Shown here piece by piece: positions 14,762-36,874 of a DNA stretch of 64,000 bases. Position 1 is the stretch's first letter. Every line of letters starts with the position of its first letter. The notes below the pieces were generated by a model. It was not told the origin of the DNA. It saw only the letters and a program-made list of their open reading frames with translations, and did no database searches. This DNA is from Shewanella sp. KT0246 (GTDB lineage Bacteria > Pseudomonadota > Gammaproteobacteria > Enterobacterales > Shewanellaceae): the NCBI RefSeq assembly GCF_019654955.1, contig NZ_BPEV01000012.1, forward strand, positions 1-64,000, given 5' to 3'. The position numbers and the translations under genes are program-made.

Positions 14762-14795
14762 TTGGTTCTCATTTAGATGAAAGTGTTGCATCAAA

Positions 14796-15398: not shown

Positions 15399-15938
15399 TT
15401 CGAACTCCTAAATTAAAAATAATATTTATAACCACTCACCCAGACTAACAGTAGATGCTAATTCTAGAAGTTAATTGTAAACATAGTTCTTCACGGTATC
15501 AGCTGTTTTTATAATTGATTTGACTAAATATATGAGTCTATGAATTCAACTATAGCCTAGTTTAGCTTAACTGTTATTGAACCAACTCGTTATAAGCCAT
15601 TTCTTGCTTATATAAGGTGAGGGTTCTATTTTCTTCAGCTAAATGAGCGATATCATTTAGAAACGGCATCTCGAAATCTACCCCAAAAGAACGGTATGAA
15701 AATATAAGTCATTATTATAATGTTTACGTGCAATGTGCGTCATTGGTTTATTTTTCCGCAGTAAAACGAGTGCGATCTGCGCAACATCTGTATGTTATAG
15801 GTTATATCTTTAGCTGTTTTATATTAACAATTGATCTTTGGTTTAACATGCTAGAGGTTGATTATGGTCTTGAACTAAGGTTCATTGTTTTAGAGAGAAT
15901 GTAAGCTTATTGATAGAGTTTATTGTTTTTTGGGAAAT
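15399..15938. other. Non-coding stretch with one palindrome
   Basis: No gene of useful length is seen. The clearest element is the 15-bp palindrome CAATGTGCGTCATTG at 15731-15745, almost identical to one in the hybrid-kinase promoter (7838-7852). No sigma-54 promoter could be found between it and the gene starting at 15398. Confidence 0.5.
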
Positions 15939-16562
15939 TCAAATATTCACAGCGATTAATACTCCAGCGATAAGCATAATACTACCTGCAACTCGATTTA
16001 TAACTCTATGAGCCTTAGCTGAACTGAATATTTTTTTAGCTTTTACAGCCATTAATGCATAACACAAGTTGATACTGCCAAATGCAAGGGTTGCAATCCC
16101 CATGACGATAGCTGCATCATTAAAGCTAATATTACTCGAAGGGACAAATGCTGGAAAAAATCCAACATAAAATATAATCGCTTTAGGGTTACTTAGTCCT
16201 ATCATTAAGCCTGTTACTGTATTTTTAATTCCGTTTGAATATATTCCGTCTGTGATTTCGGTTATTTCAGCCGTATGTATTTTGCTAGAAATGAGTTGAT
16301 ACCCTAACCAGCAAAGGTAAGTGGCACTTAAGTATTTTATAACCACGAATGCTGTTCCCATTACGCTTGCTAATGCGGTTAGGCCAAACAGTGCAATACA
16401 AATAAATAAGTAATCTGCTATTAAAACCCCGACAAATAATTGTATTGCAGGGACTAAGCCGTGAGAAAAGGAGCGTGAAATTATTGCAAATACTACTGGG
16501 CCTGGAACCATTGCGAGGACTAGCATGGTAAATAAAAGGCTGAGTGATTGCTGTAGTTCCAT
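15939..16562 (-). CDS. LysE/RhtB-family amino-acid exporter
   Basis: A 207-residue inner-membrane protein with five to six hydrophobic segments. The N-terminal MVPGPVVFAIISRSFSHG is the family signature, and the GLSNPKAIIFYVGFFPAFV stretch in the middle is equally typical. These proteins export amino acids or related small metabolites with the proton gradient; the substrate cannot be told. I chose the ATG at 16562, preceded by caggaagc, over an in-frame TTG at 16616 without a site. It is divergent from the DTW-domain gene. Confidence 0.88.
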   Translation of the reverse strand: MELQQSLSLLFTMLVLAMVPGPVVFAIISRSFSHGLVPAIQLFVGVLIADYLFICIALFGLTALASVMGTAFVVIKYLSATYLCWLGYQLISSKIHTAEITEITDGIYSNGIKNTVTGLMIGLSNPKAIIFYVGFFPAFVPSSNISFNDAAIVMGIATLAFGSINLCYALMAVKAKKIFSSAKAHRVINRVAGSIMLIAGVLIAVNI

Positions 16563-16666: not shown

Positions 16667-17194
16667 ATGAAAATTATATTGCTCACCCATCAAAAAGAAA
16701 CTACCAGACCGACTAATACTGGCCGTTGGGTCAAACAGATTATGGATGACAACGCGTTAGTTATTGAATGGGATAGAGTTAACCCAAATATTGATCTGAT
16801 TAGATTCATAAATGAGGCAAGAGTAGGCTTACTATTTCCTGACACTACCCAGCAACATACTTTATCTAATTCTGCTGTTCATTCTGTGACTTCTTCTGTT
16901 CGTACTAGCGATAAAGAGACCAATGATGTGTCAGATTTTGATGCATTAATTATTATTGACTCTACATGGCAAGAAGCCCGTAAAATATACAATCGTAGTC
17001 CTTATTTAAAGGAACTAAAAAAGGTGTCAATTGATAGTTCTGTTGGTTCTATTTATGAACTAAGAAGAAATCAGCTAGAAGGTGGTTTGTGCACTGCAGA
17101 GTGCGCAGCGCATATTTTAAAACAATGCGGTAATTTACAATCCGCTGAGAAAATTATGGATTTACTTAGGTTACAAATCTCAGTTACAAATTGA
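16667..17194 (+). CDS. DTW-domain protein, putative tRNA aminocarboxypropyltransferase
   Basis: A 175-residue DTW-domain protein. The signature appears as DSTWQEARKIYNRSPYL (about 105-121), with the N-terminal LTHQKETTRPTNTGRW and the C-terminal GLCTAECAAHIL segments expected for the family. DTW proteins such as E. coli TapT add a 3-amino-3-carboxypropyl group from SAM to uridine in tRNA. This one is shorter than E. coli TapT (about 230 residues) and lacks its N-terminal cysteine cluster. The ribosome site before the ATG is weak. The specific tRNA position is inferred only from the family. Confidence 0.75.
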   Translation: MKIILLTHQKETTRPTNTGRWVKQIMDDNALVIEWDRVNPNIDLIRFINEARVGLLFPDTTQQHTLSNSAVHSVTSSVRTSDKETNDVSDFDALIIIDSTWQEARKIYNRSPYLKELKKVSIDSSVGSIYELRRNQLEGGLCTAECAAHILKQCGNLQSAEKIMDLLRLQISVTN

Positions 17195-17225
17195 ATTGAA
17201 AGAATAGCGAGAACATGGACGTATT

Positions 17226-17603
17226 ATGATTAGAAAATTATTAGCAGTCTTATTAATTCTATATGGGTTAATTGCTGCTATGTTATTGATGTTCGCACAG
17301 CCGACTCATACACAATGGTTTTATCAGTTTAGTTATAGCCTAGTGTTTATTGGTACTCCTTTTGCTGGGAGTTACTGCGTGCTTAAAGAAAATAGATGGG
17401 GAATATTTCCTTTGGTGTTTTTGTTTGCCACGCAAATCATAAGACCATTAACACCCTTTGAGTATTTTCCTTTTCAGGCGCCTTTTTCTCTTGCAATCCC
17501 TTTTGGTAACTTGTCACAGGGAGAAGGTTATCTAGTCGATTTTTTTGCTATTACCATGTTACTTGTTGTCGTCTTAATGTTAGCTAAACAGAAAGTTAAA
17601 TAG
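17226..17603 (+). CDS. Small membrane protein, unknown function
   Basis: A 125-residue protein with three to four hydrophobic helices (about 4-24, 33-50, 56-72 and 100-120) and a short basic C-terminus (AKQKVK). I do not recognise a family. It follows the DTW gene by 31 bases and may share its transcript. The aromatic/proline-rich loop PLTPFEYFPFQAPFSL lies between the last two helices. Confidence 0.6.
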   Translation: MIRKLLAVLLILYGLIAAMLLMFAQPTHTQWFYQFSYSLVFIGTPFAGSYCVLKENRWGIFPLVFLFATQIIRPLTPFEYFPFQAPFSLAIPFGNLSQGEGYLVDFFAITMLLVVVLMLAKQKVK

Positions 17604-18282: not shown

Positions 18283-20952
18283 CTATTGTTGATATTGAAA
18301 ACTTTTATGTAATCGAATGTCTTCGACTGATGAACCAAGCATAACCTTAAACTCACCTGATTCAGCTAACCAGTCATTGGTTTTTACATCCCAAAACGAT
18401 AAGTCACGCTTATTAAGATTAAAACTTACTTTGCCTGTCTGGCCAGCTTTAAGCCAAACTTTATCAAAACCTTTCAGCTCTTTAAGCGGACGAGGCACAC
18501 TGGCCTTCATATCATAAAGATAAAGCTGCACAACTTCAGCGCCATCGGTTTTGCTGGTATTGGTGATACTGGCAGAAACAGTTAACGTGTCATCTCCGCT
18601 GAGCTTGCTACTGGAGAATTTAATATCGTCATAGCTAAATTCACTGTAAGACAAACCATGGCCAAACGGGAATTCTGGCGCAATTTTTTGTTGCTCAAAC
18701 CAGCGATAACCAATAAATACGCCTTCAGAATATAACGACTCTTTTTCGTTATAGTCATTTAAAGCGATTGGCGCAGTATCTTGCAGCTTTTTAGGTAAAG
18801 TAATCGGCAATTTACCGCTTGGGTTAACATCTCCAAATAAGACATCGGTATAAGCATGGCCAGCTTCCATACCACCATACCATCCCCAAGCAATGGCATT
18901 CGCTTTTTCAGCCCAAGGCATTTCAACGGCAGAGCCACCAATTATGAATATTACGGTGTTAGGGTTAACAGACAATAGCTTGCTAATGATTTCATCTTGC
19001 TGGCCAGGTAATTTCATGTCTGGTCTATCAATGGATTCGCGGTCATCAGCATGGCTTAAACCTGCGTAATAAATGACCGCATCAGCACTTTTGGCAGCGT
19101 TTAAATACTCTGACTCTGAGTTATACAAGCTATTGGGTGTTTCCCAACCTAATGTGACATTTTTCTTACCTTGGTAAACTAATTTAAAGGCATAAGTTTC
19201 ACCAGCTTTAAGTTCAATATCTTCATTAATCACATTGGTATGCTGAGCGTTTTGGCTAAATAATAGTTTATCATTAATCAGCAGAGAAACCTTACCATCA
19301 CCTAGGACTTTTAATGTGTGTTTACCTGATTCCATCGGTTTGATATTTGCCTGTATTTCAACGTTTTGTTGCTGACCTTTGGCATCAAACTGCGGATCTG
19401 CTATCCATGACTCACTGGTTAACTGTTTAAGTTGATTATCTGCATAATAGTTAATTTGCCAAGAAGGGGTACCAGTCCAGTGACGTGTGGTTAAGTAGTC
19501 ATTGGGAATAGGCATAAATTTGCTACTTGCTGGGCGCATATGCTGGATATTGACCTTGTTACCTACTTGCTCAAACTTGGCTTTTAGGCCATCAAGCGGG
19601 CTAACTTCATATAAAGCTTTTACCTCTGATGAACCGCCACCAAAACCGTGTCGTTTATCTGCGTTAGGTCCTAATACTAAGATGTTTTCGACCTTATTTG
19701 TATCAAGGGGTAATACTTGATTATTGTTCTTTAATAGCACCACGCCATTGGCCGCTATAGTGCGGGCATCTTCACGGTGGGCTTGAGTATTGCGCTCACC
19801 TGATAAACGTTGTTTGTCCATCATACCGATGCTTAATTGCACTCTAAGAATACGGCGAACTTTGTCGTCAAGCTCAGATTCAGGCACTTTACCGGCTTTT
19901 ATCATCGCTAGTAGTGGATCTGCTAAAAAGTATTCATCATAACTTTCGACAGCGGTGCCCATTTCAATATCTAGGCCGTTCATGGCAGCGTCATAGGTAT
20001 TGATGTCGACATTCCAGTCAGTAAGGAGCACACCTTCGTAGGCCCATTCACCTTTTAAAATAGTTTTAATAAGATGATGGCTTTGGTTAGCATTAGTGCC
20101 GCGAAACTCATTATATGCCCCCATAATGGCATGCACATTGGCTTCTTTTACAGCAGCTTCGAATGCGGGTAAATAAACTTCACGCAGAGTACGCTCATCG
20201 GGTTTCGCATTCACACCTGTACGGTTTAGCTCTTGGGTATTAAGGGCATAGTGTTTAACCGTTGCCCCTACGTCATTTTCTTGAATTGCCTTGACTGTGG
20301 GAACGACCAAAGTAGCAGCTAAATAAGGGTCTTCGCCCATGTATTCGAAATTACGTCCGTAAAGCGGCAATCTGGCAAGGTTAACCCCAGGCCCGAGAAT
20401 AAGGTCTTTATTACGGTGGCGCGCCTCAGCGCCAAGAACATTACCATGAAGACTTGCCATTTCAGGATCCCAACTTGCGGCTACGGCCGTGAGTGGTGGT
20501 AGATAAGTTGAATAGTCATTGGTCCAGCCAGCAGGTGCCCAAGAGTTTCTGTCAATTTCGTAACGTACACCGTGGGGACCGTCAGACATCCACATTTCAT
20601 GGATATTTAATCGCTCAATAGCGGGGATATGAAACTTACCGCCGGCATGCACCAGTGATACTTTTTCTTCTAAAGTGAGCTGTGGCAGTAAACGTTCAAT
20701 TTCAGATTCAACCGTAGATAAGCGAGCTTGTAAGCGTTGTTGTTCGCTATTGCTAAGAACAGAAAGGGCATGAGATTGACTGACCATACTCTCTGAAGGT
20801 GCCGCAACCGTTACAGTTGTACTAAGCAATAACATTGAAGCTGAAATGGGCAATGAAACCGACAATGTTCTAAGCATACGATTATTGAACATTTTTGTGT
20901 CTATCACACCTTTTGTAAGCGCTTTCATTTTTGGCCGTTTTTTGGCTGTCAT
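18283..20952 (-). CDS. GH3 beta-glucosidase with inserted PA14 domain
   Basis: An 889-residue secreted or periplasmic glycoside hydrolase family 3 enzyme. A basic N-terminal stretch leads into a hydrophobic segment ending TVTVAA (about 33-51), a signal peptide. The first catalytic domain has KHYALNTQE and the nucleophile D312 in GVLLTDWN. A PA14-like insert (about 480-600, with the LGDGKVSLLINDKLLF stretch) sits inside the second domain, and a fibronectin-III-like domain ends the protein (NTSKTDGAEVVQLYL). It should remove glucose from the ends of beta-glucan oligosaccharides. An aaggag site 8 bases before the ATG fixes the start. It is the last gene of the leftward halogenase group. Confidence 0.9.
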   Translation of the reverse strand: MTAKKRPKMKALTKGVIDTKMFNNRMLRTLSVSLPISASMLLLSTTVTVAAPSESMVSQSHALSVLSNSEQQRLQARLSTVESEIERLLPQLTLEEKVSLVHAGGKFHIPAIERLNIHEMWMSDGPHGVRYEIDRNSWAPAGWTNDYSTYLPPLTAVAASWDPEMASLHGNVLGAEARHRNKDLILGPGVNLARLPLYGRNFEYMGEDPYLAATLVVPTVKAIQENDVGATVKHYALNTQELNRTGVNAKPDERTLREVYLPAFEAAVKEANVHAIMGAYNEFRGTNANQSHHLIKTILKGEWAYEGVLLTDWNVDINTYDAAMNGLDIEMGTAVESYDEYFLADPLLAMIKAGKVPESELDDKVRRILRVQLSIGMMDKQRLSGERNTQAHREDARTIAANGVVLLKNNNQVLPLDTNKVENILVLGPNADKRHGFGGGSSEVKALYEVSPLDGLKAKFEQVGNKVNIQHMRPASSKFMPIPNDYLTTRHWTGTPSWQINYYADNQLKQLTSESWIADPQFDAKGQQQNVEIQANIKPMESGKHTLKVLGDGKVSLLINDKLLFSQNAQHTNVINEDIELKAGETYAFKLVYQGKKNVTLGWETPNSLYNSESEYLNAAKSADAVIYYAGLSHADDRESIDRPDMKLPGQQDEIISKLLSVNPNTVIFIIGGSAVEMPWAEKANAIAWGWYGGMEAGHAYTDVLFGDVNPSGKLPITLPKKLQDTAPIALNDYNEKESLYSEGVFIGYRWFEQQKIAPEFPFGHGLSYSEFSYDDIKFSSSKLSGDDTLTVSASITNTSKTDGAEVVQLYLYDMKASVPRPLKELKGFDKVWLKAGQTGKVSFNLNKRDLSFWDVKTNDWLAESGEFKVMLGSSVEDIRLHKSFQYQQ

Positions 20953-21086: not shown

Positions 21087-21842
21087 CTAGCTAACATTGA
21101 TAAATATATTGGCAGTCAAACGTCCAGTTTTGGGGTTACTGTCAATATCAGTTTGGTAATTAACTAAAGTCGAATGCAATAAATTCCCTGGGTATATGAC
21201 CAAGCGATGCTGTTTGTATTCTATGTGATGATGCTGTTGATAATGCTCGTTACTTTCAACAAAATATTGAGCCGGAAAGGGGGCTAACTCTTGCAAATAG
21301 GGCTCCGCGGCTCTGAAGTATTTGTCCATGTTTGACTGGGTTATACGCTCATAACCTGTGGGTTGGTGCTTAAAAAATGCAGTGGCACCATGAGGGCTAT
21401 CATTGAGATATTGGAGTACAGCAAAGTAATAAGGTGCTGGTGTGTCAAAGTGTGGAATACGCTGTAAAGTACTCAAGCTTTCAGGCTGTCGATTGATTAA
21501 TGAAAAGTAAGTCGCTTGAGGTTTGATACGTAAATTAGTTGGGATCTTGTAAACATCATAAATTAATTGAAAAACATGGTTCAGCACTTCGATGACGTAA
21601 TCTTTTGGCAACTTAGCCCTTACTCCTGGGTAGTAAGAGCCTTTATCTAAATCAAAGTCGACTTGGTTAGCACAGTGTTGTAGTTCAGAGATATCAGCAG
21701 TAAAGTTATCGATGACAATCACAGGTGTGCGCAGCTCACCGATATAATGAATCTCAGGCTTCATTGGCTTATTCACCAATATCAGCGGATTAAGATCTGT
21801 TATGTCCTGTGCTTGTTTACGCTGTGTATTTTGATCTGTCAT
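21087..21842 (-). CDS. DUF6445-type protein with 2-oxoglutarate/Fe(II)-oxygenase-like motif
   Basis: About 251 residues, cytoplasmic. The order H131-F-D133 (IPHFDTP), H223 (NLLHSTL) and R241 (TGRLTANIFI) is the HxD...H...R pattern of Fe(II)/2-oxoglutarate-dependent oxygenases. I think this is the DUF6445 family, whose members travel with tryptophan-halogenase homologues and TonB receptors. The substrate is unknown. I chose ATG 21842, with an aagg site 7 bases upstream, over the in-frame TTG at 21848. It lies 46 bases after the halogenase gene and is probably cotranscribed. Confidence 0.7.
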   Translation of the reverse strand: MTDQNTQRKQAQDITDLNPLILVNKPMKPEIHYIGELRTPVIVIDNFTADISELQHCANQVDFDLDKGSYYPGVRAKLPKDYVIEVLNHVFQLIYDVYKIPTNLRIKPQATYFSLINRQPESLSTLQRIPHFDTPAPYYFAVLQYLNDSPHGATAFFKHQPTGYERITQSNMDKYFRAAEPYLQELAPFPAQYFVESNEHYQQHHHIEYKQHRLVIYPGNLLHSTLVNYQTDIDSNPKTGRLTANIFINVS

Positions 21843-21887
21843 ATACAACCTTACTGACTCGCTATTTAAATAATACTACAAGTGGAT

Positions 21888-23420
21888 TTACAACATTTTT
21901 GACTTGCAATAATTCTGCACAAAATCGTAATGATCAGGCAAGTTAGCTACTTTTTGCTTCGCTTTTAACTTTATATTACCTAAAAAATGCTCAAGCTCTT
22001 CATCTTCCATCATATCGACAATAGGGTGATATTGCTTAGGTGCGAGCCCTTGACCCATCATCACCTGTATCCATGAGCTTTCGCCAAATAACTCATTGCC
22101 GTGCTTATAGACTTTGCCTGAGGCATCAAACATATCGATACGATGCTGCAGCGACGCTGGCACACTCATGTTTTTACAATAGCGCCAAAAGCGAGTATCA
22201 GTGCGGTCAGTGACTTTATAATGCAACACAATAAAATCACGGATATTTTCAGTTTCAGTGCGGGTTTGTTCGTTAAATTCATTAATGTCTTCTTCAACAA
22301 TACCTTGTGAAGGGAACATCTGGAGTAGGCGAACAATACCGCGTTGAATAAGGTGGATGCTGGTGGACTCTAATGGTTCTAAAAAACCAGATGATAGTCC
22401 TATTGCAACACAGTTTTTATGCCATGTTTTACGGCGGCTACCAGTGCGGAATTTGATCACCCGAGGGTCGGTTAACGGCTCACCTTCAATGTTGTTCATT
22501 AAGGTGGCTTTGGCATCTTCATCACTCATGTATTTACTGCAAAAAACGATACCATTACCGGTACGGCTTTGTAGTGGAATACGCCATTGCCAACCTGAAT
22601 CTCGAGCGATTGAACGAGTGTATGGGATCGTTTTTTCGGTGGTTTTAGTTTGCACTGCAATAGCGCTATCACACGGTAACCAATGGCTCCAATCATCAAA
22701 ACCTGTATTAAGTGTGCCTTCGATAAGCATGGCTCTAAAACCCGTGCAATCAAGGAATAAGTCACCCTCAACCAGTTCACCTGACATCAGCTTTAAACCA
22801 CTGATATTACCAGTATCTTCATGCTGAAGAACATCTGAAATCTTGCCTTCTATACGGGTAATACCGTGTTTTTCAGCGATGACCCGTAAGAACTTGGCAT
22901 AAAGTGTTGCATCCATATGATAAGCATGGTTGTAATCTTGATTCGGCAGCACAGCAAAGCGGCCTTCACGGGCTGCTAAATGCTCGGTGCAGTAATCGCC
23001 AATTTCACTGACGATACCGCGCTGTTGTCCTTTAAGCCAAAAATGTTGGAAACCACAAGCCCAGCAGTCTTTACCCAAAAATCCAAAGGAGTGAATATAG
23101 TCTTTGCCTACATCATGCCAATTTTCAAATGAAATCCCGAGCTTGAATGTGGCATTAGTCGCTGCCATGACATCTTGTTCTTTAATGCCCAGTAACCGAT
23201 GAAAAATATGTAATGTGGGAATCGTGGCTTCGCCAACACCGACAGTACCAATCTCGTCAGACTCAACGAGTACTACTTCTAAATTTTTACCTAATAGTTT
23301 TGTTAATGCAGCGGCCGCCATCCAACCAGCAGTTCCGCCACCTGCGATAACCACTTTTTTAATCGGCTTGTTGCCAGTGTTAGCTTTACTGTTTTCATTA
23401 CTGGAGTGTTGCTTTTGCAT
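21888..23420 (-). CDS. Flavin-dependent tryptophan halogenase homologue (first)
   Basis: A 510-residue flavoprotein. FAD-binding GGGTAG at 27-32, the family lysine K93 (NATFKLGISFENW), the WxWxIP motif complete at W277-W279-I281-P282 (GWQWRIPLQ), and SGFLEPLESTSIHL near 350. With all key residues kept it should be a working FADH2-dependent halogenase, or at least bind flavin in that way; the substrate need not be free tryptophan. An aagg site 12 bases before the ATG supports the start. Similar genes beside TonB receptors are known in Caulobacterales and Xanthomonas. A separate flavin reductase would be needed and none is in the window. Confidence 0.88.
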   Translation of the reverse strand: MQKQHSSNENSKANTGNKPIKKVVIAGGGTAGWMAAAALTKLLGKNLEVVLVESDEIGTVGVGEATIPTLHIFHRLLGIKEQDVMAATNATFKLGISFENWHDVGKDYIHSFGFLGKDCWACGFQHFWLKGQQRGIVSEIGDYCTEHLAAREGRFAVLPNQDYNHAYHMDATLYAKFLRVIAEKHGITRIEGKISDVLQHEDTGNISGLKLMSGELVEGDLFLDCTGFRAMLIEGTLNTGFDDWSHWLPCDSAIAVQTKTTEKTIPYTRSIARDSGWQWRIPLQSRTGNGIVFCSKYMSDEDAKATLMNNIEGEPLTDPRVIKFRTGSRRKTWHKNCVAIGLSSGFLEPLESTSIHLIQRGIVRLLQMFPSQGIVEEDINEFNEQTRTETENIRDFIVLHYKVTDRTDTRFWRYCKNMSVPASLQHRIDMFDASGKVYKHGNELFGESSWIQVMMGQGLAPKQYHPIVDMMEDEELEHFLGNIKLKAKQKVANLPDHYDFVQNYCKSKML

Positions 23421-23538
23421 AACAGGATTTCCTTAGGACTAAGCCACTAAATAGTGATTTACTCTTTGTTATTCGTTTCTAAAGTTATCAATGAGCACTT
23501 TATTAATCAGTTATATGTTTAGTTGTGCTCATACACGA

Positions 23539-24552
23539 TTATCGTTTTAGTTTATTAATTAAATCAGCTCTTAATTTTCTGGCATTTAATTCATCAAGCG
23601 GCTTGGTTTGCATCCCTTGGGCATCTTGGGGGATGTGACTAACATCATCGTCATCATGATCGAAAATATAATGATCGAAGTGTGCTTTCCAGGCTTGTCT
23701 TTGCGCTTTAGGTAGTGAGCGAAGGCTTAACATTGCCATAGCGAGGGCGTTATTGGGTCTACCAAGGTAAGCGGGCGTATCACGCCACCAGTGGGTAATT
23801 AATACGTTAAATGATTCAATACCACTCACTTGATGCCACCACATGCTTGGCACATAAAGTACATCACCAGCTTCAAGTTCTGCGGTTTTTGCAGCGGCTA
23901 ATGCCTGCTTGTATTTAGGATATTTTTCAAAGTCTGGATTATCAAAATCAACCATACTGATTTCTTGACCACCGGGAGCAAACTCCATAGGGCCGATATA
24001 CAAATTACTCACTTGTTCAGGTGGGAAAAGGGTAAAGGTTCGTTTGCCAACTACATTACAAGCGAGATTTTGAGGAAAATCAAAATGGGCTGCGATTCTT
24101 GATTGATTGCCTAGCCAAACACTGGTTAAAGGTCTAATAGGCTCAAGCTTTAAGCTATTGTCATCAGCTAACCCCGGCAGGAACTGATTAATTTCAGTAG
24201 AGCCCATATAAATGCTTGGTGGCAGTTCGTCATCTTTATGGGCGAATAGCTTATCAATTACTTGATTTAAATTAAGTTGAGCAGCTTGGTAATTAAAACC
24301 ATTAACCTGCTCATTATAAAACACTCGGCCTTTATGTTTAGGCTCAACATAATAAGCCGTTACAGGTGTATCTTTATAAAAACTAAGTAAGTAGTCAGCT
24401 GCTGCTTTAGCGGAATCTAAACCAGCTTGCACAAGTGGCCATGCCAGACAAGCGCCTTTAAAAATGACTGGCTCATCCGTTTGAGCCATCATTAATGCGA
24501 TATCAGATAATGGACAATTTTCAATTACCTTAACTGTCTGACTATGTTCCAT
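23539..24552 (-). CDS. Cupin/JmjC-like (cupin_8) oxygenase-type protein
   Basis: A 337-residue protein. The metal triad of JmjC/FIH-type oxygenases is visible: H156-F-D158 (RIAAHFDFPQN) and H240 (PSMWWHQVSG), with the KRTFTLFPPEQ strand expected between them. Relatives hydroxylate protein side chains or RNA bases with 2-oxoglutarate. In this locus it lies between a SapC gene and a halogenase gene, 48 and 118 bases away, on the same strand. The real substrate is unknown. Confidence 0.8.
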   Translation of the reverse strand: MEHSQTVKVIENCPLSDIALMMAQTDEPVIFKGACLAWPLVQAGLDSAKAAADYLLSFYKDTPVTAYYVEPKHKGRVFYNEQVNGFNYQAAQLNLNQVIDKLFAHKDDELPPSIYMGSTEINQFLPGLADDNSLKLEPIRPLTSVWLGNQSRIAAHFDFPQNLACNVVGKRTFTLFPPEQVSNLYIGPMEFAPGGQEISMVDFDNPDFEKYPKYKQALAAAKTAELEAGDVLYVPSMWWHQVSGIESFNVLITHWWRDTPAYLGRPNNALAMAMLSLRSLPKAQRQAWKAHFDHYIFDHDDDDVSHIPQDAQGMQTKPLDELNARKLRADLINKLKR

Positions 24553-24600
24553 CTACAACAACCTTGTTTACCTAGTTACGGCTAATGACATAGCCTAATG

Positions 24601-25320
24601 TTATTGAGCGTTTTTAAAATTCAATAACTGCCTGATATTGGATTGTGACGCCAAGGTCATATAGATTGCATTGAGATAACCTTGCTGATGGAGTTCTGCC
24701 AATGTTTCAGCTGGGAGAGCTGCGAGGGTTTCTTCATTAATGGTATAAAAACCGATCATCTGATGCTTTTCACCGTTATCTAACTCAATATCTAAAGTAA
24801 ATGACTCAAGTAATTCGAGTTTGATTAAGGTTTCAATAAAGTTTTTGCTATCAATTAACCCATGGTGAATGGTTTCTAGCATTTCACCGACTTCATCAAG
24901 ATAAGGCGTATTACCTCCATAAGGGAAGAACAACGGTTCACCTTCTTCCTCATTGATTCTTGGATGATTTGGGTCTAAGTGGATCACGCGTTGAATTTGT
25001 TCTACGCCATCTTCTTGAACGGTTTGCTGACCGATTAAAAATGGCTGACGGCGAACGGTTAATGGAATATAGGCAGCTTGCCATTTTCCATCTTGGAGGA
25101 ATAGATTCTCTTTATGTTGGAAACCAAACATTGCAATTGAGTAAAATTGACCAGTATTGCTGTCTTTTTGAAAAAAGATGGGATAGTGCGCTTGAACACT
25201 TCTAAATTCGGCTGGGAAAGTCACTGTATACCAAAGATTGTCACCATACTTTTCTGAACGTTCGGTGATGATTTTTAGATCTTTATGATCGACACTATTA
25301 AGTAATACTGGTTTGTTCAT
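24601..25320 (-). CDS. SapC-family protein
   Basis: A 239-residue protein of the SapC family, with no signal peptide. The conserved N-terminal part includes HYPIFFQKDSNTGQFYSIAMFG and the following PLTVRRQPFLIG strand (about 45-100). SapC was first named for an S-layer-associated protein of Campylobacter, but its biochemical role is not established; members next to tryptophan halogenases and TonB receptors are common. It lies between the second halogenase and the cupin-type gene in one leftward group. Confidence 0.8.
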   Translation of the reverse strand: MNKPVLLNSVDHKDLKIITERSEKYGDNLWYTVTFPAEFRSVQAHYPIFFQKDSNTGQFYSIAMFGFQHKENLFLQDGKWQAAYIPLTVRRQPFLIGQQTVQEDGVEQIQRVIHLDPNHPRINEEEGEPLFFPYGGNTPYLDEVGEMLETIHHGLIDSKNFIETLIKLELLESFTLDIELDNGEKHQMIGFYTINEETLAALPAETLAELHQQGYLNAIYMTLASQSNIRQLLNFKNAQ

Positions 25321-25423
25321 GCTGACATCCTAATCAAATACAGCCATAGCTGTGCTTATTTTTTAATGATAATTTTTTAGTTTTAATGCTCATTTATTAC
25401 AGCTCAAATATTCTTGTTTAGAG

Positions 25424-27007
25424 CTAAATCTTAGGTAATCCATATTGGGCAATTTTTGCCAATAACTCACGGTTAGTGGGCAAAAGTTGTTTCAATCCTT
25501 GGGTGCGTTTTACATTTTCAGCAAACAGTTGTTGTGCTCGGTTTTGCAGTGATGGTTTTAAATGGCTTGGGCTCATAGTTTGAAACTCCATGCCGTAGAG
25601 CACGAACTGAAAACTGGCGGCAGGAAATAATACATCGGTGTATTGAATATCATGCTTGTTTGGTGTTTGAGTTCGCCATAATTCAATTTGCTGTTGCAGT
25701 GAATCTGGTATGGTTGATGATTCACGATGGTCGTGCCAATAGTCACTGTCACTGCGTTTACTAAGCACATAATGTAACTTTAAAAATTCAATAATTTGTT
25801 GCCAATGCTGGCCAAACCTTTGATTGACTCGCGCAGCAATAATATCCATAACTTGTCTGTTACTCGGTAGCTGTTTTGCTAATGTATTGGCACTCCATTC
25901 AACTAATGCTAAAGCTGAAGCTTCAAGCGGCTCAATAAACCCAGAGGCCATGCCGATAGCCATACAATTGTTTTTCCAACATACTTTTCGATGACCAGGT
26001 GCAATCGATAGCTTTCTTATATCGAGGTTATCAACATCAATATTGACAGTGGGCCTTAGGTATTCAATTAATTGTTGTTCAGCTTGTGCTTGGTCAGTAT
26101 GGCTTGATGAATATACATGACCGACCCCGCGTCTGGTAGGTAAGCCTATATCCCAAATCCAGCCATTGGTTTGTGCAGTCGAATGAGTACAAGAGGCAAT
26201 TTCAGAATCAGCTTGTGGGTAAGGGACTTGTATAGCTAACGCAGAGTCGTTAAATAACACCGACTTTTGACACACAAAGGGAACGTTTAATTGCTCGCCG
26301 AGCAATAAAGATTGTACCCCAGTGCAATCGACAAAAAAGTCACCTTGTAGTTCTCCAGATTGTTTAGTCGATAAATGATTGATATCCCCACGGTCATTTT
26401 TATGAATTGCAGTCACATGGTCTCGAATGTGTCTGACACCAAGTTTTTCAGTGCAATGCTTTTGCAGTAATTGGCTAAATTTCCCTGCATCGAGGTGGTA
26501 GCCATAATTGTTTTGAAACTGATATTCGCCAGTGGTGATTTGTTTAGGCGCTAAACTGCACTGACTTAATTGATTTTGCTGGCCAACGGCATCAGCAAAG
26601 CTAACTTGCTCTTGATGAGGCAACCAGTAAGGGCAAAGGTCTAATTCATTAGTACCGATAGGCAAGCTAAAAGGGTGCAGATAATGATCTGCTGAACTGT
26701 TATTAGCTTGGTGATCATGAGTCCAATTAATAAACCGTGAGCCTTGCTTAAAACTCGCATCGCAGCTCATTAAAAAATCGGTTTCACTAATACCGATGTT
26801 TTTTAGCGTGGTACGCATCGAAGGCCAGGTGCCTTCGCCGACCCCAATGGTCGGTACATCAGGAGATTCTATTAAAGTAATATTGAGTTTAGGGGAGGGC
26901 GATAGTTTGCCATTATCAGCGTTATGCTCAGCAGCCAGTATCCCTGCTGTTAACCAACCTGCAGTGCCGCCGCCAACAATAATGATGTTTTGTATCGCTT
27001 GTTCCAT
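25424..27007 (-). CDS. Flavin-dependent tryptophan halogenase homologue (second, variant motif)
   Basis: A 527-residue homologue of the halogenase at 21888-23420. It has the FAD motif GGGTAG (12-17), the family lysine K87 (DASFKQGSRFINW) and SGFIEPLEASAL near 355. The WxWxIP motif is altered to WIWDIG (W283, W285, I287, G288): the proline is missing, and the conserved ESTSIH of the first copy is EASALA. It may therefore have a different substrate, or act as a flavin oxygenase or as a non-catalytic partner. It is the first gene of the leftward group after the TonB receptor terminator. Confidence 0.85.
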   Translation of the reverse strand: MEQAIQNIIIVGGGTAGWLTAGILAAEHNADNGKLSPSPKLNITLIESPDVPTIGVGEGTWPSMRTTLKNIGISETDFLMSCDASFKQGSRFINWTHDHQANNSSADHYLHPFSLPIGTNELDLCPYWLPHQEQVSFADAVGQQNQLSQCSLAPKQITTGEYQFQNNYGYHLDAGKFSQLLQKHCTEKLGVRHIRDHVTAIHKNDRGDINHLSTKQSGELQGDFFVDCTGVQSLLLGEQLNVPFVCQKSVLFNDSALAIQVPYPQADSEIASCTHSTAQTNGWIWDIGLPTRRGVGHVYSSSHTDQAQAEQQLIEYLRPTVNIDVDNLDIRKLSIAPGHRKVCWKNNCMAIGMASGFIEPLEASALALVEWSANTLAKQLPSNRQVMDIIAARVNQRFGQHWQQIIEFLKLHYVLSKRSDSDYWHDHRESSTIPDSLQQQIELWRTQTPNKHDIQYTDVLFPAASFQFVLYGMEFQTMSPSHLKPSLQNRAQQLFAENVKRTQGLKQLLPTNRELLAKIAQYGLPKI

Positions 27008-27212: not shown

Positions 27213-27235
27213 GAGGTGACCATGGCGGCCACCTC
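27213..27235 (-). terminator. Terminator after the TonB-receptor gene
   Basis: On the minus strand a 9-bp stem with one G-U pair (gaggtggcc with ggtcacctc) is followed by seven T residues. It lies about 30 bases after the receptor stop codon, so the halogenase group is likely to have its own promoter or use read-through. Confidence 0.9.
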
Positions 27236-27263: not shown

Positions 27264-30263
27264 TTAGAATGTGTAACGAGCACCTAGGCTATAACGAGCT
27301 CCAGTTTGGGTATAGTTAAGTACTTGGCTGTACGAACGACCATGAGTACGAGTATTTTCTTCAGTAATGTTTAAACCTTCAAAGAATACCGTTAGGCCTT
27401 CAACCGCAGCGATGTCATAACCAATATTGAAGTCAACTTGTGAGTATTCTTCGGTATAACTTGGGTTAGCACCAGTACCATCACCTGTTGAGTTCAAGAA
27501 CTCATCACGCCAGTTCCATGCAAGACGTGCAGAGAAACCGTAGTTTTCGTAGATAGCAACAACGTTAGCTGTATCACTGATATTAGTTAGTACATTTTGT
27601 GGGTCATCACCTGGACGGTTTAAATTAGCATTGTCATAAGTGTCGCCCGCATCAACTAAGGTGTAGTTAGCTTGCATACCAAAGCCTGATTCACCGAAGA
27701 AGTGTTGAACTGCGAATTCCCAACCATCAATCACTGAACTATCACTACTGTTTGAAGGAGTAGTTAAAACAAAGTTCAAGTCTGGATCACCAGGGTTACC
27801 AGTAATCTCAATATTGCCGTTGTCTGGATTAAGTGTCACATTCGGATCAGTAGCACCGTAGTTGTCATAAATCCACTGACGTTGACCAATAGCCGTTGTT
27901 TCACCAGCTGCAATTGCTTCTTGAACATAAGCGCCATTTGATGGGTCTGGAATATTATAGATTGTTGAGTTAACTGGGTTACTATCGATAAAGTTCGTTA
28001 CGTCTTTACGGAAGTAACCAATAGATACGTAACTTGCGTCAGCGTAGTACCACTCACCAGAGAAGTCATAGTTTGTAGACTCAAGTGGAAGTAGGCTTGG
28101 GTTACCGCTTGAACCACTACCACCGCCTCGGTTAGCGAGTGTACCGACTGTAGTACCACCTTGAATTGAGGTGTAATCAGGACGACCAATTGTTTCACTG
28201 TATGCTGCACGTAAGTAAACATCTTCTACCACTTCGATATTGAAGTTAAAGCTTGGTAAGAAGTAATCATAAGAACCTGTTTGCTTACCAAATACTCGGT
28301 TATCTGAAGTCGTGCTCTCAAGTGCGATTTCTGTTTCAGCAATCCAAGTAGCTTGGTCATATGAAGATACAGCTGACTTAGATTCAACATCGGTTTTTTC
28401 ATAACGTACGCCGAAGTGAACATCAAATGGCATATCGCCCCAGTCACCTTCGTAGTTATATTGGATATAAGCTGATTGTGATTCTTCTTGAGTGAAACGG
28501 TCGGTATCGCTAGCGTAATCTGTAGATGGACAGAAGCCATTACCACAGTCACCAATTGCTGACGAACCATATAATTCAGCTGCACGAGCTCTAACAGCTT
28601 CAAAGTCCCAAAGGAAAATCACATCTTGTGGGTCGATAGATGCAGAACCTTGGTAATCAGAGAAGTCACCTTGTGAACCATCAAACTTATCTTGAACACT
28701 ACCTGCTGGGAACCAAGAAGGGTCGAAATCGCCTTCAGCGCCAACACCACCCCAGTCATTACGCTGTACGTTTACTGATTGAGAGTGATTGTTTACGTCA
28801 GTAGCTGCGATACCAAAGTCAATGCTACCTGCTTCTTCAAAGACGTAAGTACCATTGATTTGAAGTTGCTCAACTTCTGATTTATTTCGAGCATTACCAA
28901 ATACAGAACCAGTTACACGCATATCTTCAGGGCGAACAGCATTACCACCGCCAACAGCTAATACAGGAACATCGCCTGTGAAGTCTGTTGCAGCACTTGT
29001 ACGAATAAATGCCGCCGTACTTAAGTTACTGTTACTACCATTTTTATTATTTGGTGAACGTTCAGCTTCTGAAGTATGGTAATCCAATGATAAGAATAAG
29101 TTATCAGTAGCATCCCACTCTAAGTTAAAACCTAAAGAACCACTTTCATCACGGGTACCGTAATCACCCGCAGCCATTGATAAATCAGCGCCGCCATCAG
29201 GGTAAGTTTCAGAATAAACCAGTGGAGAAGATACTGGGCCGTCAGACCAAGTACTTTCTTGAGTTGGAACAAAGTTAAACCATGCAGAAACATCGTGTGA
29301 CTGTGTATCTACATCATTTTGCATATAGGTGTAGTCTAATGTTGCACGTAACGAGTCAATAGGCTCATATTGCAACACTAACTGACCGTTAGTTCGGGTA
29401 CGTTGTTGCTCTTCAAAACGGTAAACCGTGGTTTGAGGAACAGCATATACATCTCCTTCACCTGGGCGGTTTATTTGATTGTCATCTTTTGGAACACCAC
29501 CCCATTCAGCGTTATCGCCGCCCCAGTCTTGGTCAACAATACCTGGGAAACTACGCCAACCTGTACCAACTTGTGCTTGTTGGTTACCACTTTCACGTTC
29601 TTGGTAACTGGCAGAAATCGAAATACCAAATTTGCCATCTGCAAAAGTGTTTGAGTATAAACCTGAAAGTTCTGGTGTGACTGAGCCTTCATCAGTTGAT
29701 TGATCATCAACAGCTTTAACACCAAAGGTCGCTTTTAAACCTGGAGAGCTTAATGGGCGATGAGTTAGAACATTAATGGTTGCACCGATACCACCAGTTG
29801 AGTTTTTCGCTTGGCTAGTTTTTTCAACTTCAACTGCACTGATTGCTTCAGATGCAATGTTGGCGAAGTCGAAAGAGCGAGAACCCGTTGTTACTGGCAT
29901 TTGACGATTATTGAGCATAACCAAGTTTTGGTCTGCACCGAAACCACGAACAGATACACGGCTACCTTCACCATTTTGTCTGTCGATTGATACACCAGTA
30001 ATACGTTGTAAAGACTCTGCTAAGTTACTGTCTGGGAACTTACCAATGTCTTCAGCGTTAATTGCATCTACGATACCGTCAGAGCTACGCTTTAAATCCA
30101 TAGATTTAATTAAGCTTCCACGAATACCAGTGACCTTAAGTACTTCAATGTTTTCATCTGCAGCGACTTCGTCGGCTGCAAATGCTGGCATCATGGTACT
30201 TGCACTCAGTACTACCGACAAACTAGTGGCAATTCTGGTCTTTTTAAATGTTCTAAATTTCAT
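27264..30263 (-). CDS. TonB-dependent receptor (Xanthomonas/Caulobacter type)
   Basis: A 999-residue outer-membrane receptor. It has a signal peptide ending MPAFA, a TonB-box-like segment after it (ENIEVLKVTGIRGSL), a plug domain with NLAESLQRITGVSIDRQ and SVRGFGADQNLVML, and a 22-strand barrel ending in the terminal RYTF. It matches the TonB-receptor subgroup that often accompanies glycoside hydrolases and tryptophan-halogenase homologues. It should import beta-glucan oligosaccharides across the outer membrane. A LacI-type operator overlaps its promoter at 30389-30434. No SusD-like partner is present, as usual for gammaproteobacteria. Confidence 0.92.
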   Translation of the reverse strand: MKFRTFKKTRIATSLSVVLSASTMMPAFAADEVAADENIEVLKVTGIRGSLIKSMDLKRSSDGIVDAINAEDIGKFPDSNLAESLQRITGVSIDRQNGEGSRVSVRGFGADQNLVMLNNRQMPVTTGSRSFDFANIASEAISAVEVEKTSQAKNSTGGIGATINVLTHRPLSSPGLKATFGVKAVDDQSTDEGSVTPELSGLYSNTFADGKFGISISASYQERESGNQQAQVGTGWRSFPGIVDQDWGGDNAEWGGVPKDDNQINRPGEGDVYAVPQTTVYRFEEQQRTRTNGQLVLQYEPIDSLRATLDYTYMQNDVDTQSHDVSAWFNFVPTQESTWSDGPVSSPLVYSETYPDGGADLSMAAGDYGTRDESGSLGFNLEWDATDNLFLSLDYHTSEAERSPNNKNGSNSNLSTAAFIRTSAATDFTGDVPVLAVGGGNAVRPEDMRVTGSVFGNARNKSEVEQLQINGTYVFEEAGSIDFGIAATDVNNHSQSVNVQRNDWGGVGAEGDFDPSWFPAGSVQDKFDGSQGDFSDYQGSASIDPQDVIFLWDFEAVRARAAELYGSSAIGDCGNGFCPSTDYASDTDRFTQEESQSAYIQYNYEGDWGDMPFDVHFGVRYEKTDVESKSAVSSYDQATWIAETEIALESTTSDNRVFGKQTGSYDYFLPSFNFNIEVVEDVYLRAAYSETIGRPDYTSIQGGTTVGTLANRGGGSGSSGNPSLLPLESTNYDFSGEWYYADASYVSIGYFRKDVTNFIDSNPVNSTIYNIPDPSNGAYVQEAIAAGETTAIGQRQWIYDNYGATDPNVTLNPDNGNIEITGNPGDPDLNFVLTTPSNSSDSSVIDGWEFAVQHFFGESGFGMQANYTLVDAGDTYDNANLNRPGDDPQNVLTNISDTANVVAIYENYGFSARLAWNWRDEFLNSTGDGTGANPSYTEEYSQVDFNIGYDIAAVEGLTVFFEGLNITEENTRTHGRSYSQVLNYTQTGARYSLGARYTF

Positions 30264-30388: not shown

Positions 30389-30434
30389 ATGTAAGCGCTT
30401 ACATAAAACTAGATTAATTTGTTAACAGCGTCAA
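30389..30434 (-). promoter_or_regulatory. TonB-receptor promoter with LacI-family operator
   Basis: On the minus strand TTGACG (-35, 30434-30429) and TAGTTT (-10, 30411-30406) are 17 bases apart. Directly after the -10 lies the perfect 16-bp palindrome ATGTAAGCGCTTACAT (30389-30404), covering the expected start of transcription. The central AAGCGCTT is typical of LacI/GalR-type operators, and the repressor gene is next door. A weaker partial match (TTGTAAACGCTTTTAA) follows at about 30352-30367. Confidence 0.8.
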
Positions 30435-31195: not shown

Positions 31196-32203
31196 TTACT
31201 TACTCATTGGCTTAGTCGCAGAGTCTCTTACGATAAGTGCTGGATTAAATGTGTTTTCAACTAATGGTTTAGGGTCATTATAAATATGCTTCAGCACCCA
31301 TAAGGCTGCCATTTTACCCATTTCATGAATTGGGTTATTCACTGTGGTGAGTTTTGGTGAGATATATTGCGGAAAAGGAATGTTGTCGTAGCCAACAAAC
31401 GATAGCTCTTCAGGAATACTCATGCCTTTCTTAAGACAAACCGCAATAGCACCAGAAGCCATTTGATCATTGGCACACACTACAGCTGTAAAGGGTTTAT
31501 TAACTTTGAACAGTGCATCCATGGCTTCACTGCCACCTTGCTCTTTATAGTTTCCTTCGTAAAAAAGCTGTTGATCAAACTCAATGTTAAATTCAGCTAA
31601 AGCACGCTTATGGCCAGACAAACGGTCTTGCGAGTCGAGTTTAAACAGTGGCCCAGAAATATAGGCCAGGTCTTTGTGACCATGCTCCAGTATATGTTTT
31701 GTTGCTAGGTAACCACCAAGCTCATTATCTAGATATACACAGCGCTCACTGATTTCGTCAATGTAACGGTTAATGAGTACAATAGGAGTATTACCTTGGT
31801 GAAGCTTGATGAGGTATTCATCATCAACGGCTTCAACATCTAGAATTAATGCATCGCAGCCTCGGCTAATTAAAAACTCTACACCGTCTCTTTCTTGAGA
31901 TTCGTCGCTGTGACCTGCTGCAATGATAACGTGCTTATTACCTGCACGAAGGGCTGTCTCAATTTCGGTCATCATCGGACCGTAGAATGGACCGTCAAGT
32001 TGCGAGACAAGAACGCCAACACTATTAGAGCGGCTAGACGCAAGTGATTGAGCAATGGTATTTGGGCGGTAACCCAATTGATCCATCGCACTCATCACTT
32101 TTTGTCTGGTTTTTTCACTGACCTTGGTGTTGTTATTCATCACGCGTGAAACGGTTGCCAGTGATACGCCAGCTAAGACTGATACGTCGTATATTGTCGC
32201 CAT
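31196..32203 (-). CDS. LacI-family transcriptional repressor of the beta-glucan locus
   Basis: A 335-residue LacI/GalR regulator. The N-terminal helix-turn-helix and hinge are typical (TIYDVSVLAGVSLATVSRVMNNN; YRPNTIAQSLA), followed by a periplasmic-binding-like sensor domain. It sits between the TonB-receptor gene and the permease/GH1 genes. The two near-identical palindromes at 30389-30404 and 35313-35328 are its likely operators; the inducer would be a sugar such as glucose, cellobiose or laminaribiose (inference). No such palindrome is seen before its own gene. Confidence 0.9.
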   Translation of the reverse strand: MATIYDVSVLAGVSLATVSRVMNNNTKVSEKTRQKVMSAMDQLGYRPNTIAQSLASSRSNSVGVLVSQLDGPFYGPMMTEIETALRAGNKHVIIAAGHSDESQERDGVEFLISRGCDALILDVEAVDDEYLIKLHQGNTPIVLINRYIDEISERCVYLDNELGGYLATKHILEHGHKDLAYISGPLFKLDSQDRLSGHKRALAEFNIEFDQQLFYEGNYKEQGGSEAMDALFKVNKPFTAVVCANDQMASGAIAVCLKKGMSIPEELSFVGYDNIPFPQYISPKLTTVNNPIHEMGKMAALWVLKHIYNDPKPLVENTFNPALIVRDSATKPMSK

Positions 32204-32435: not shown

Positions 32436-33755
32436 TTATTGAGTTATTGCTGCATGCACTTCTTCAACTTGTTTATTGTCTAATTTATACCACTTCATCA
32501 CTATTGCTACGATAATAGAACCTACAGCAGGGTAGATAGTGAATGAAATTAAAATACCTTGCTGAGTCGCTGCTGTTTGTTCAACATCGGCTTGATAACC
32601 ATATAACGCTAGTAACCAACCTGCAGCTGCCCCGCCAATTGCGACACCTAATTTGATAAAGAAAATCACCGATGAATAAATCATTCCGGTTATTCTAACG
32701 CCGGTTTTATATTGGCCGTAATCAACAACATCAGCCATTTTAGCCCAAAGCAGTGGCGTGCCCATATTGAAGGTAAAGCCCCACAATATAAATAAGGCAA
32801 AAGCGATTTCAACTTGATCACCTGAGACAAAATAAGCAGCAATACAGAGGGCTGCAGCGATAAATTGAATCGTAATGTAGGCTTTGACTTTACAAACCCG
32901 TTTAGCTAATGGCTCAGCTAAAATACAACCAAAAATGTTACCAATCATACCTAAGGTAATAAAGAGAGTGATAGAGTCAGGCATATGCAAATAATATTTA
33001 ACGTAATAAATCGCTAAACTGGTTTTAAGTACCATACCCGATAACAACCAAATTGCGGCAATAGAGAGGATGCGCCATTGGTCGTTTTGCCAAAGTAACT
33101 TGAAGTCTCTTTTAAAGCTCAAGTTTTGATCTTTAGGTGGGTGTAAACGCTCTTTAGTACCTAAAAAGCATAAGACAAACATCACTACGCCTAACGCACT
33201 CATTGCCGCTATTGTAAGTTGGTAGCCTTTTGCTTGGTCGCCTTGGCCGAAATATTCCACTAACGGTAAAGTTAATGCCGACACCATTAATCCGCCAATC
33301 ATGGCAAATACAAAGCGATATGATTGGACTGACACGCGTTCTTTAGGATCTGCAGTTAATACACCGCCTAATGCACAGTAGGGAATATTAATAGCTGTAT
33401 AAACCATCATTAATGCCGTATAAGTGACGAAGGCATATATCATTTTACCTTCTTCGGCTAAATCTGGTGTGGTAAAAGCAAGTACACTGATTAAGCCAAA
33501 CGGCAGCGCGAACCACATAAGGTAGGGACGAAACTTACCCCATTTGGTTTCTGTTCTATCAGTTAATGCGCCCATTAGCGGGTCTGTTATCGCATCGATA
33601 AAGCGAACGGCAAGAAACATGGTGCCGACAAATGCAGGTGAAATACCAAAAATATCAGTATAAAAAAAGGTTAAAAACAACATTACTGTTTGGAACACTA
33701 TATTACTGGCTGTATCACCTAATCCATAGGCTATTTTCTCTTTAACGCTAATCAT
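32436..33755 (-). CDS. GPH-family sugar:cation symporter
   Basis: A 439-residue inner-membrane transporter with twelve hydrophobic segments, of the glycoside-pentoside-hexuronide (MelB-like) family. Signature: KIAYGLGDTASN at the N-terminus and FIDAITDPLMGALTDRT with KWGKFRPYLMW (about 53-78). It should take up disaccharides or glucosides. It is encoded 85 bases after the GH1 beta-glucosidase gene on the same strand, so uptake and intracellular cleavage of a beta-glucoside are probably coupled. Confidence 0.88.
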   Translation of the reverse strand: MISVKEKIAYGLGDTASNIVFQTVMLFLTFFYTDIFGISPAFVGTMFLAVRFIDAITDPLMGALTDRTETKWGKFRPYLMWFALPFGLISVLAFTTPDLAEEGKMIYAFVTYTALMMVYTAINIPYCALGGVLTADPKERVSVQSYRFVFAMIGGLMVSALTLPLVEYFGQGDQAKGYQLTIAAMSALGVVMFVLCFLGTKERLHPPKDQNLSFKRDFKLLWQNDQWRILSIAAIWLLSGMVLKTSLAIYYVKYYLHMPDSITLFITLGMIGNIFGCILAEPLAKRVCKVKAYITIQFIAAALCIAAYFVSGDQVEIAFALFILWGFTFNMGTPLLWAKMADVVDYGQYKTGVRITGMIYSSVIFFIKLGVAIGGAAAGWLLALYGYQADVEQTAATQQGILISFTIYPAVGSIIVAIVMKWYKLDNKQVEEVHAAITQ

Positions 33756-36787: not shown

Positions 36788-36874
36788 TTAAGTTTTAACT
36801 GAGTGGCTGACATCGTGAATTCATTCAGGCAATCAAATTTAGACATTACTAAAAGAATAGATAAGGCAAAATTT

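Follow-up and report, generated by a model that had tools for sequence, protein, structure and literature searches.

Five genes in a window of 64,000 nucleotides from Shewanella sp. KT0246 (contig NZ_BPEV01000012.1, positions 1 to 64,000) encode two flavin-dependent halogenases (HalB and HalA), a SapC-family protein and two oxygenase-like proteins (Cupin_8 and DUF6445), and lie in one group behind a gene for a TonB-dependent receptor. We find that this enzyme set follows TonB receptors, while the sugar differs from locus to locus. The five genes would form a tailoring set tied to the receptor ahead of them and not to the sugar; the explanation that we tentatively prefer, and to which we give somewhat less than an even chance, is that the enzymes act in the cytoplasm and add halogen and hydroxyl groups to side chains of the surface protein encoded next to them, i.e. 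the receptor itself. The protein families are known, and it is their recurring arrangement for which no published description was found; indeed, no paper joining SapC and a halogenase was found in the literature searched, where subscription papers mostly fall outside coverage.

Recurrence of the enzyme set behind TonB receptors

On the minus strand, in the direction of transcription from 30263 to 21087, the gene order is receptor-HalB-SapC-Cupin_8-HalA-DUF6445, followed by a gene of glycoside hydrolase (GH) family 3, and 256 bp separate the stop codon of the receptor, the first gene of the group, from the start of HalB:

27264-30263, minus strand: TonB-dependent receptor (OmpBgl-like), which heads the same cassette in other genomes; TIGR01782 624 bits (cut-off 310), Pfam Plug and beta-barrel
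25424-27007, minus strand: HalB, flavin-dependent halogenase of the 2PYX-like clade; PF04820 1.6e-113
24601-25320, minus strand: SapC-family protein; PF07277 1.4e-73
23539-24552, minus strand: Cupin_8/JmjC-like Fe(II)/2-oxoglutarate (2OG) oxygenase; PF13621 1.5e-66, JmjC_2 3.6e-05
21888-23420, minus strand: HalA, flavin-dependent halogenase of the BrvH clade; PF04820 1.7e-189
21087-21848, minus strand: DUF6445 protein, with the motif and fold of a 2OG-Fe(II) oxygenase; PF20043 1.1e-64

All five open reading frames (ORFs) were found on the minus strand where an earlier note, made from the sequence alone, had placed them; the leftward five-gene group that it saw between a TonB receptor and a GH3 enzyme is confirmed, as coordinates and family matches agree. 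The five proteins match their Pfam families far above the cut-off. The listed start of the DUF6445 ORF is TTG, with an ATG two codons further on. Inspection by eye and a simple hydropathy scan revealed no evident export signal at the starts of the five proteins, in line with the earlier note, and the hydrophobic N-terminal starts of HalA and HalB contain the nucleotide-binding motif GGGTAGW.

The KT0246 genome holds seven matches to PF04820, five of which are either complete or truncated by nothing but a contig end; all five lie behind receptors (a contig-end fragment on contig C79 and a weak match on contig C15 were left out). These halogenase groups sit behind four receptors in all, in loci for beta-glucan (the window, with two halogenases), for N-acetylglucosamine/chitin (with GH20, amidohydrolase, SIS and BadF), with an agarase-carbohydrate-binding module/porphyranase, and with an alpha-amylase, where the halogenase is cut by the contig end. 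The proposal of the earlier note that an imported aromatic tied to the sugar is modified thus loses weight, since across four different polysaccharide loci the sugar changes and the enzymes stay.

Similar results were obtained for 118 genomes of the order, in which a profile search scoring at most 12 candidates per genome identified, among the matches listed, SapC in 30 genomes and some PF04820 match, many of them weak, in 58. The counts exclude weak PF04820 matches (up to about 55 bits), and 86 stretches, comprising all SapC matches and the strong halogenase matches, were fetched. A receptor lies upstream on the same strand, within 6.5 kb, for 91 of the 102 halogenases of at least 400 residues, a set in which L074 (456 residues) is doubtful and outside which the alpha-glucan locus L015, cut by a contig end, was kept. 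The same holds for 37 of 61 SapC genes with regard to a same-strand upstream receptor. Cassettes were ordered as receptor-HalA in 19 cases, receptor-HalB-SapC in 13, receptor-HalB-SapC-Cupin_8-HalA in 6 and the same with DUF6445 in 4, with other variants occurring one to three times each. In one locus (L060), HalB, SapC and DUF6445 genes are located near a gene of the FecR family, which is tied to receptor signalling.

With the HalB alignment as query, we also collected 80 named loci from Gamma-, Beta- and Alphaproteobacteria, which are the best of at least 579 confirmed HalB relatives and are biased to near relatives. Seven of them, with less than 3.2 kb upstream, were left out, and among the remaining 73 the halogenase is immediately preceded by a receptor gene in 66, and the stretch contains one in 71. 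SapC is present in 79 of the 80 loci, Cupin_8 in 64 and DUF6445 in 20; GH1 occurs in at least 15 and GH3 in at least 25, both being lower bounds from narrow home-made profiles. The five-gene grouping is not due to chance, since its gene order is found again both elsewhere in the order and in these named proteobacteria. In a FastTree phylogeny of 124 receptors, which has several long branches, linkage to the cassette requires 13 changes, as compared to a mean of 41.5 in 500 shuffles, none of which was as low, indicating that linkage tracks receptor sub-clades, yet was gained or lost repeatedly.

These counts bear on two further explanations. Halogenase and oxygenase sets are typical of natural-product clusters, and the earlier note had considered a detached pathway, in which these enzymes would add the last steps to a halogenated product with a core synthesized from genes at other places in the genome; a cyanophage halogenase/2OG/cupin set has been read as a secondary-metabolite or capsule-decorating system (PMC7824862). 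The presence of a receptor in nearly all assessable named loci, the occurrence in one genome of several separate sets behind different receptors, the lack of a conserved peptide in the gaps between the genes, and the absence of polyketide synthases and non-ribosomal peptide synthetases among the 20 window proteins scanned with Pfam, a scan confined to those proteins, all speak against such a pathway, which we regard as very unlikely. The substrate could also be a ribosomal peptide, similar to the ribosomally synthesized and post-translationally modified peptides, encoded by a precursor gene in or near the group: MibH halogenates a peptide (as cited in PMC7336383), and SapC could, speculatively, be a peptide-binding partner. 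The small conserved peptides for which the earlier note proposed to look did not appear, as none of 553 small ORFs of at least 20 residues, from gaps of at least 66 bp and excluding the flanks outside the gaps, has relatives in more than three other loci; of all explanations considered here, this is the one that we find least credible.

Catalytic residues and folds of the five proteins

Both window halogenases match PF04820 above the cut-off over nearly their full length, and HalB is 88% identical to the S. electrodiphila HalB. Alignment of the 101 halogenases of at least 470 residues, from both clades and including both window proteins, showed that the Gly positions of GxGxxG, the flavin adenine dinucleotide (FAD) motif, and the catalytic Lys are kept in all sequences, and the Glu of FxEPLE in 100. 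HalA carries GxGxxG, Lys93, WxWxIP and FLEPLES, while HalB retains the catalytic Lys and Glu and displays WIWDIG where WxWxIP is expected. Within the HalA clade, 54 of 55 members have the Pro of WxWxIP, whereas the same position in the HalB clade (n = 46) is Gly in 31, Ala in 8, Pro in 6 and Ser in 1. Solved relatives of HalA include 6y1w (2e-195), which we take to be Xcc4156, and 6frl (BrvH; 4e-144); the best solved relative of HalB is 2pyx (E 4.5e-251), presumably from Shewanella frigidimarina.

The earlier note had recognized a BrvH-like halogenase whose natural role was unsettled, and this agrees with PMC5945002 and PMC7336383, in which the natural substrates of BrvH-type halogenases are given as unknown and BrvH and the Xcc enzymes brominate free indoles in vitro. 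For BrvH, indole is a poor substrate and free Trp is not a substrate (PMC5945002); an open active site has been described in BrvH-type enzymes, and peptide substrates were proposed (PMC7336383).

The flavoproteins could instead carry out redox or oxidant chemistry, with hypohalite as a local oxidant, in place of halogen transfer to a fixed substrate, or, in another form of the same explanation, flavin-dependent hydroxylation or crosslinking as in QhpG, LodB and GoxB. HalB weakly matches these three proteins, far under the cut-off, and the predominance of Gly in place of Pro in its clade points in the same direction; conservation of the catalytic Lys in all sequences and of the Glu in all but one, together with the presence in the window of a HalA with WxWxIP alongside HalB, makes this explanation distinctly unlikely in our opinion.

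The HxD...H triad was found in 70 of 70 aligned Cupin_8 copies. Cupin_8 resembles in sequence the protein hydroxylases FIH (5.7e-18), JMJD5 (1.4e-13) and JMJD7, as well as the tRNA enzyme C2orf60, and its similarity to FIH and JMJD5 makes it a candidate side-chain hydroxylase. In DUF6445, residues H133, D135, H225 and R243, which correspond to HxD...H and a 2OG-binding Arg, are invariant in 22 of 22 sequences. Its AlphaFold2 model (predicted local distance difference test score, pLDDT, of 93.0) matched 15 PDB chains at E <= 0.001, of which 13 are named as 2OG or related dioxygenases and the other 2 are uncharacterised, with template modelling scores of 0.34-0.49, indicating a similar but not close double-stranded beta-helix fold. 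By motif and by modelled fold, DUF6445 is a 2OG-Fe(II) oxygenase; the nearest solved folds include HygX, KanJ and AndA, which act on small molecules.

The AlphaFold2 model of SapC is confident (mean pLDDT of 95.3) and has no match in the PDB at E <= 0.001 or Z >= 2 (Foldseek, VIA-align) or in BFVD at E <= 0.001, and phmmer with the SapC sequence against the PDB returned nothing at E 1; these absent matches do not prove a new fold. Nine SapC residues are invariant: H12, E38, P47, G66, P86, F94, F131, G135 and S225. SapC genes without an adjoining halogenase were observed in the order-level loci L019, L020, L027-L029, L031, L032, L038, L044, L051, L052, L054, L057, L058, L064, L066 and L070. A receptor lies about 4.4 kb upstream of SapC in L051, and in L027 SapC adjoins MraW and peptidase M19 genes. 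Ten neighbour proteins from nine halogenase-free SapC loci were scanned and provided no shared clue: eight match unrelated families (MraW, peptidase M19, AstE/AspA, zinc dehydrogenase, sulfatase/EptA, two pyridine-nucleotide oxidoreductases and adenosine deaminase) and two match none.

The beta-glucan locus and its control regions

The earlier note had assigned the group to a beta-glucan locus, and this setting is corroborated by a GH1, two GH3 and a GH16 enzyme, a GPH symporter and a LacI regulator. The LacI, symporter and GH1 genes are located on one side of a divergent promoter region, and the MFS, GH3 and GH16 genes on the other:

18283-20952, minus strand: GH3 enzyme encoded 3' of the cassette, its start resembling a signal peptide; Pfam domains GH3 N and C, PA14 and Fn3-like
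31196-32203, minus strand: LacI-family regulator (BglR candidate); family profile match
32436-33755, minus strand: GPH-family sugar symporter (BglT-like); TIGR00792 above cut-off
33841-35175, minus strand: GH1 beta-glucosidase; TIGR03356 above cut-off
35474-36787, plus strand: MFS transporter, divergent operon; Pfam scan
36803-39502, plus strand: GH3 enzyme, divergent operon; Pfam scan
39639-41717, plus strand: GH16 beta-glucanase candidate; Pfam scan

The true start of the GH3 enzyme at 18283-20952 is probably codon 21, at position 20892 (MFNNRM..., followed by a signal-peptide-like stretch). Three operator-like sites were identified in the window, as compared to 0.03 expected:

30389-30404: perfect 16-bp palindrome ATGTAAGCGCTTACAT, LacI-family (BglR-like) operator candidate, upstream of the receptor gene
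35313-35328: second copy, with 1 mismatch, in the region separating the GH1 operon from the divergent MFS/GH3 operon
20913-20928: third copy, with 2 mismatches, directly upstream of the probable GH3 start

The third site falls within the longer GH3 ORF. Candidate BglR-like sites precede the receptor gene, the GH1 operon and the MFS/GH3 operon. In 11 named loci, the palindrome upstream of the receptor scored 16 of 16 in six and 15, 14, 13, 12 and 10 of 16 elsewhere; random 900-base pieces of the window mostly scored 9 to 12 of 16. Operator-like sites upstream of both the receptor and the GH genes lead us to predict that the cassette is co-expressed with them.

A second element lies between the receptor stop codon and HalB:

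27213-27235, minus strand: terminator-like hairpin followed by T7

Such a hairpin is present in 53 of 130 receptor-to-enzyme gaps (mononucleotide shuffles predict 0.7), with a median distance of 27 bases from the receptor stop, as compared to 1 of 70 gaps between enzyme genes. The latter gaps are short across loci, with medians of 8 to 32 bp for the commonest kinds; those of the window measure 39 to 118 bp. Among the promoter-like sites listed, none falls on the minus strand between receptor and HalB. The simplest reading would be a single transcription unit, in which the receptor is abundant and the enzymes are scarce.

Further away in the window, we observed a SpoIIE-type response regulator (6505-7740), a hybrid histidine kinase (7959-11537) and, after it, a sigma-54 response regulator (11638-13182), a Wzi-like capsule protein (13292-14794) and an InhA-like M6 metallopeptidase gene (59103-61430; PF05547).

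Candidate substrates and known systems

If the receptor is the substrate, HalB and HalA would form hypohalous acid from reduced FAD (FADH2), O2 and halide, the latter being likely bromide by analogy with BrvH, and aromatic side chains would be halogenated. Cupin_8 and DUF6445 would hydroxylate additional side chains, with SapC as a partner protein, either adaptor or substrate presenter. The most likely substrate would be the receptor precursor in the cytoplasm, prior to export. LacI-type control at the receptor promoter could ensure that receptor and enzymes are made together, and the hairpin 3' of the receptor gene could hold the enzymes at a lower level. The benefit might be, for example, altered ligand or phage binding at the cell surface.

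A parallel is found in phages. Searching with HalA by tblastn gave 78 phage records, mostly from cyanophages, of which 14 were hand-picked (12 cyanophages, one Pelagibacter and one Campylobacter phage; S-PM2, S-CREM1, S-H38 and Syn1, for example, fall outside this sample). A tail-fibre, tail-fibre-assembly or adhesin gene is present in the halogenase stretch of 10 of the 14, all ten being cyanophages; the halogenase of the other four is in baseplate/sheath regions (2) or elsewhere (2). In S-SRM01, a tail-fibre gene stands on one side of the halogenase and the adhesin tip gene on the other, and in S-SSM7 about 9 kb separate the tail fibre from the halogenase. In control stretches about half a genome away, such genes occur in 1 of 14, or 2 of 14 with a tail-fibre connector included (one-sided Fisher 0.0007 or 0.003, phage kinship being ignored). 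Test and control stretches were of equal length in 13 pairs, those of syn9 measuring 21.6 and 15.6 kb, respectively, and two controls were shifted within the record.

The phage stretches also contain 'minor coat protein' genes that match the DUF6445 profile (best 2e-18) and look like 2OG-Fe(II) oxygenases at the sequence level:

S-SSM7 (L345), 15637-16335 and 4145-4804
syn9 (L346), 16930-17541

Cupin matches were weak (best 4e-5). Side matches came from MT835646, a faecal 'Bacteriophage sp.' record that may be bacterial DNA, with HalA-, SapC- and DUF6445-like genes (50.8, 36.4 and 31.3% identity), and from IMG/VR contigs L264, L295, L319 and L341, each with one to three halogenase and one or two DUF6445-like genes. 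Published accounts that mention both halogenase and tail fibre propose other roles for the cyanophage sets, in antibiotic production, DNA repair or secondary metabolism. It is conceivable, though we would not expect it on balance, that bacteria and phages share a halogenation and hydroxylation chemistry for surface proteins (TonB receptors and marine phage tail fibres), in which flavin-dependent halogenases and 2OG oxygenases, joined in bacteria by SapC, would introduce bromo- or chloro-aromatic as well as hydroxylated residues and thereby tune ligand, phage and host recognition.

Several observations weigh against modification of the receptor. Residue-level comparisons gave nothing: columns were tested for Trp, Tyr, His, Phe, Cys and Met in linked and unlinked receptors, the latter drawn from 10 of the 118 genomes and from the fetched stretches, and then in receptors of Cupin_8-containing cassettes and the rest. 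No receptor residue tracks the cassette, no aromatic alignment column splits the two groups, and Trp content is 1.35% in linked and 1.32% in unlinked receptors. W640, present in 60 of 61 receptors of Cupin_8-containing cassettes, was rejected as a cassette mark because unlinked receptors of the same clade carry it too; it marks a clade. The null result is itself weak, since most unlinked receptors come from halogenase-bearing genomes and could be modified in trans, and since the targets could sit in variable loops. In addition, the enzymes are cytoplasmic and the receptor is not, and to our knowledge no modified protein has been described.

The association is also incomplete. The 11 remaining halogenases of the order sample have no same-strand upstream receptor, and some of these converge with a receptor-halogenase pair or are truncated at the end of a contig; with our own receptor profile, L075 and L095 show no receptor in 19.5 kb, nor do L198 and L205 in the fetched stretch, and these receptor-less loci count against an obligate pairing of receptor and cassette. 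In L075 (2343-12002), HalA and DUF6445 are grouped on one strand with SSF transporter, GDE_C, GH31 and esterase genes. Likewise, 24 of 61 SapC genes have no same-strand upstream receptor, and 22 of these 24 have no same-strand halogenase within 2.5 kb. As for the phages, they are not independent, because 13 of the 14 belong to Kyanoviridae, and 2OG genes near their halogenases (10 of 14, as compared to 5 of 14 controls, p 0.06) show no clear enrichment.

The main competitor, which we nonetheless consider rather unlikely, is a small aromatic or signal molecule (for example one derived from Trp, indole or tyrosine), the same in all receptor loci, with receptor proximity reflecting shared regulation. 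It would fit the bromination of free indoles in vitro, the receptor-less cassettes and the small-molecule substrates of several of the nearest DUF6445 folds. The poor activity of BrvH on indole and its failure to use free Trp argue against it; moreover, no further gene was seen to recur in the groups beyond the listed enzymes, in flanking genes that were sampled only, and the phage tail-fibre neighbourhood would be left unexplained. Among the options of the earlier note, whose interpretation is partly supported, modification of a protein side chain fits best, although it is unproven.

Should receptors be the substrates, a single experiment by mass spectrometry could answer the substrate question of BrvH-type enzymes, bacteria would be shown to have a new protein modification, and the unexplained cyanophage halogenase and 2OG-oxygenase genes would gain a testable role in receptor-binding proteins. 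Even with a small substrate, the search is redirected by the rule that ties the set to the receptor rather than to the sugar, and a structure of SapC, a common protein that lacks a fold match, becomes worthwhile.

The cyanophage sets, which include prnA-type halogenases and 2OG oxygenases, resemble the cassette in enzyme families and in their frequent location beside surface-protein genes, and differ from it in that the 14 stretches contain no SapC match. The window is also reminiscent of TonB receptor loci known as carbohydrate utilization (CUT) or polysaccharide utilization (PUL) loci, where receptor, regulator, transporter and GH genes adjoin; unlike these, it carries an extra halogenase/oxygenase/SapC set without evident use in sugar breakdown. 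A further related system is the predicted Bgl system of Shewanella, composed of BglR, BglT, BglAI, GlcP, BglAII, LamA and OmpBgl, which shares with the window the GH1-GPH-LacI genes, the divergent MFS-GH3 genes, an endo-glucanase and a receptor preceded by an operator site of its own; the main text of that paper mentions neither halogenase nor SapC (PMC2996990). HalA shares with BrvH (6frl) and its relatives, 'group C' of PMC8269204, the family, GxGxxG, catalytic Lys, WxWxIP and FxEPLES, and brvH, too, has a second halogenase gene beside it (PMC5945002). Neither TonB nor SapC occurs in the main texts of PMC5945002 and PMC7336383, and the parts consulted do not describe the wider gene set. HalB matches the 2PYX-type halogenase over its whole length, and their clade differs from the WxWxIP enzymes by the missing Pro in 40 of 46 members. 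Lastly, Cupin_8 has in common with FIH and JMJD5 the JmjC core (residues about 143-261) and HxD...H, and is distinguished from them by being bacterial.

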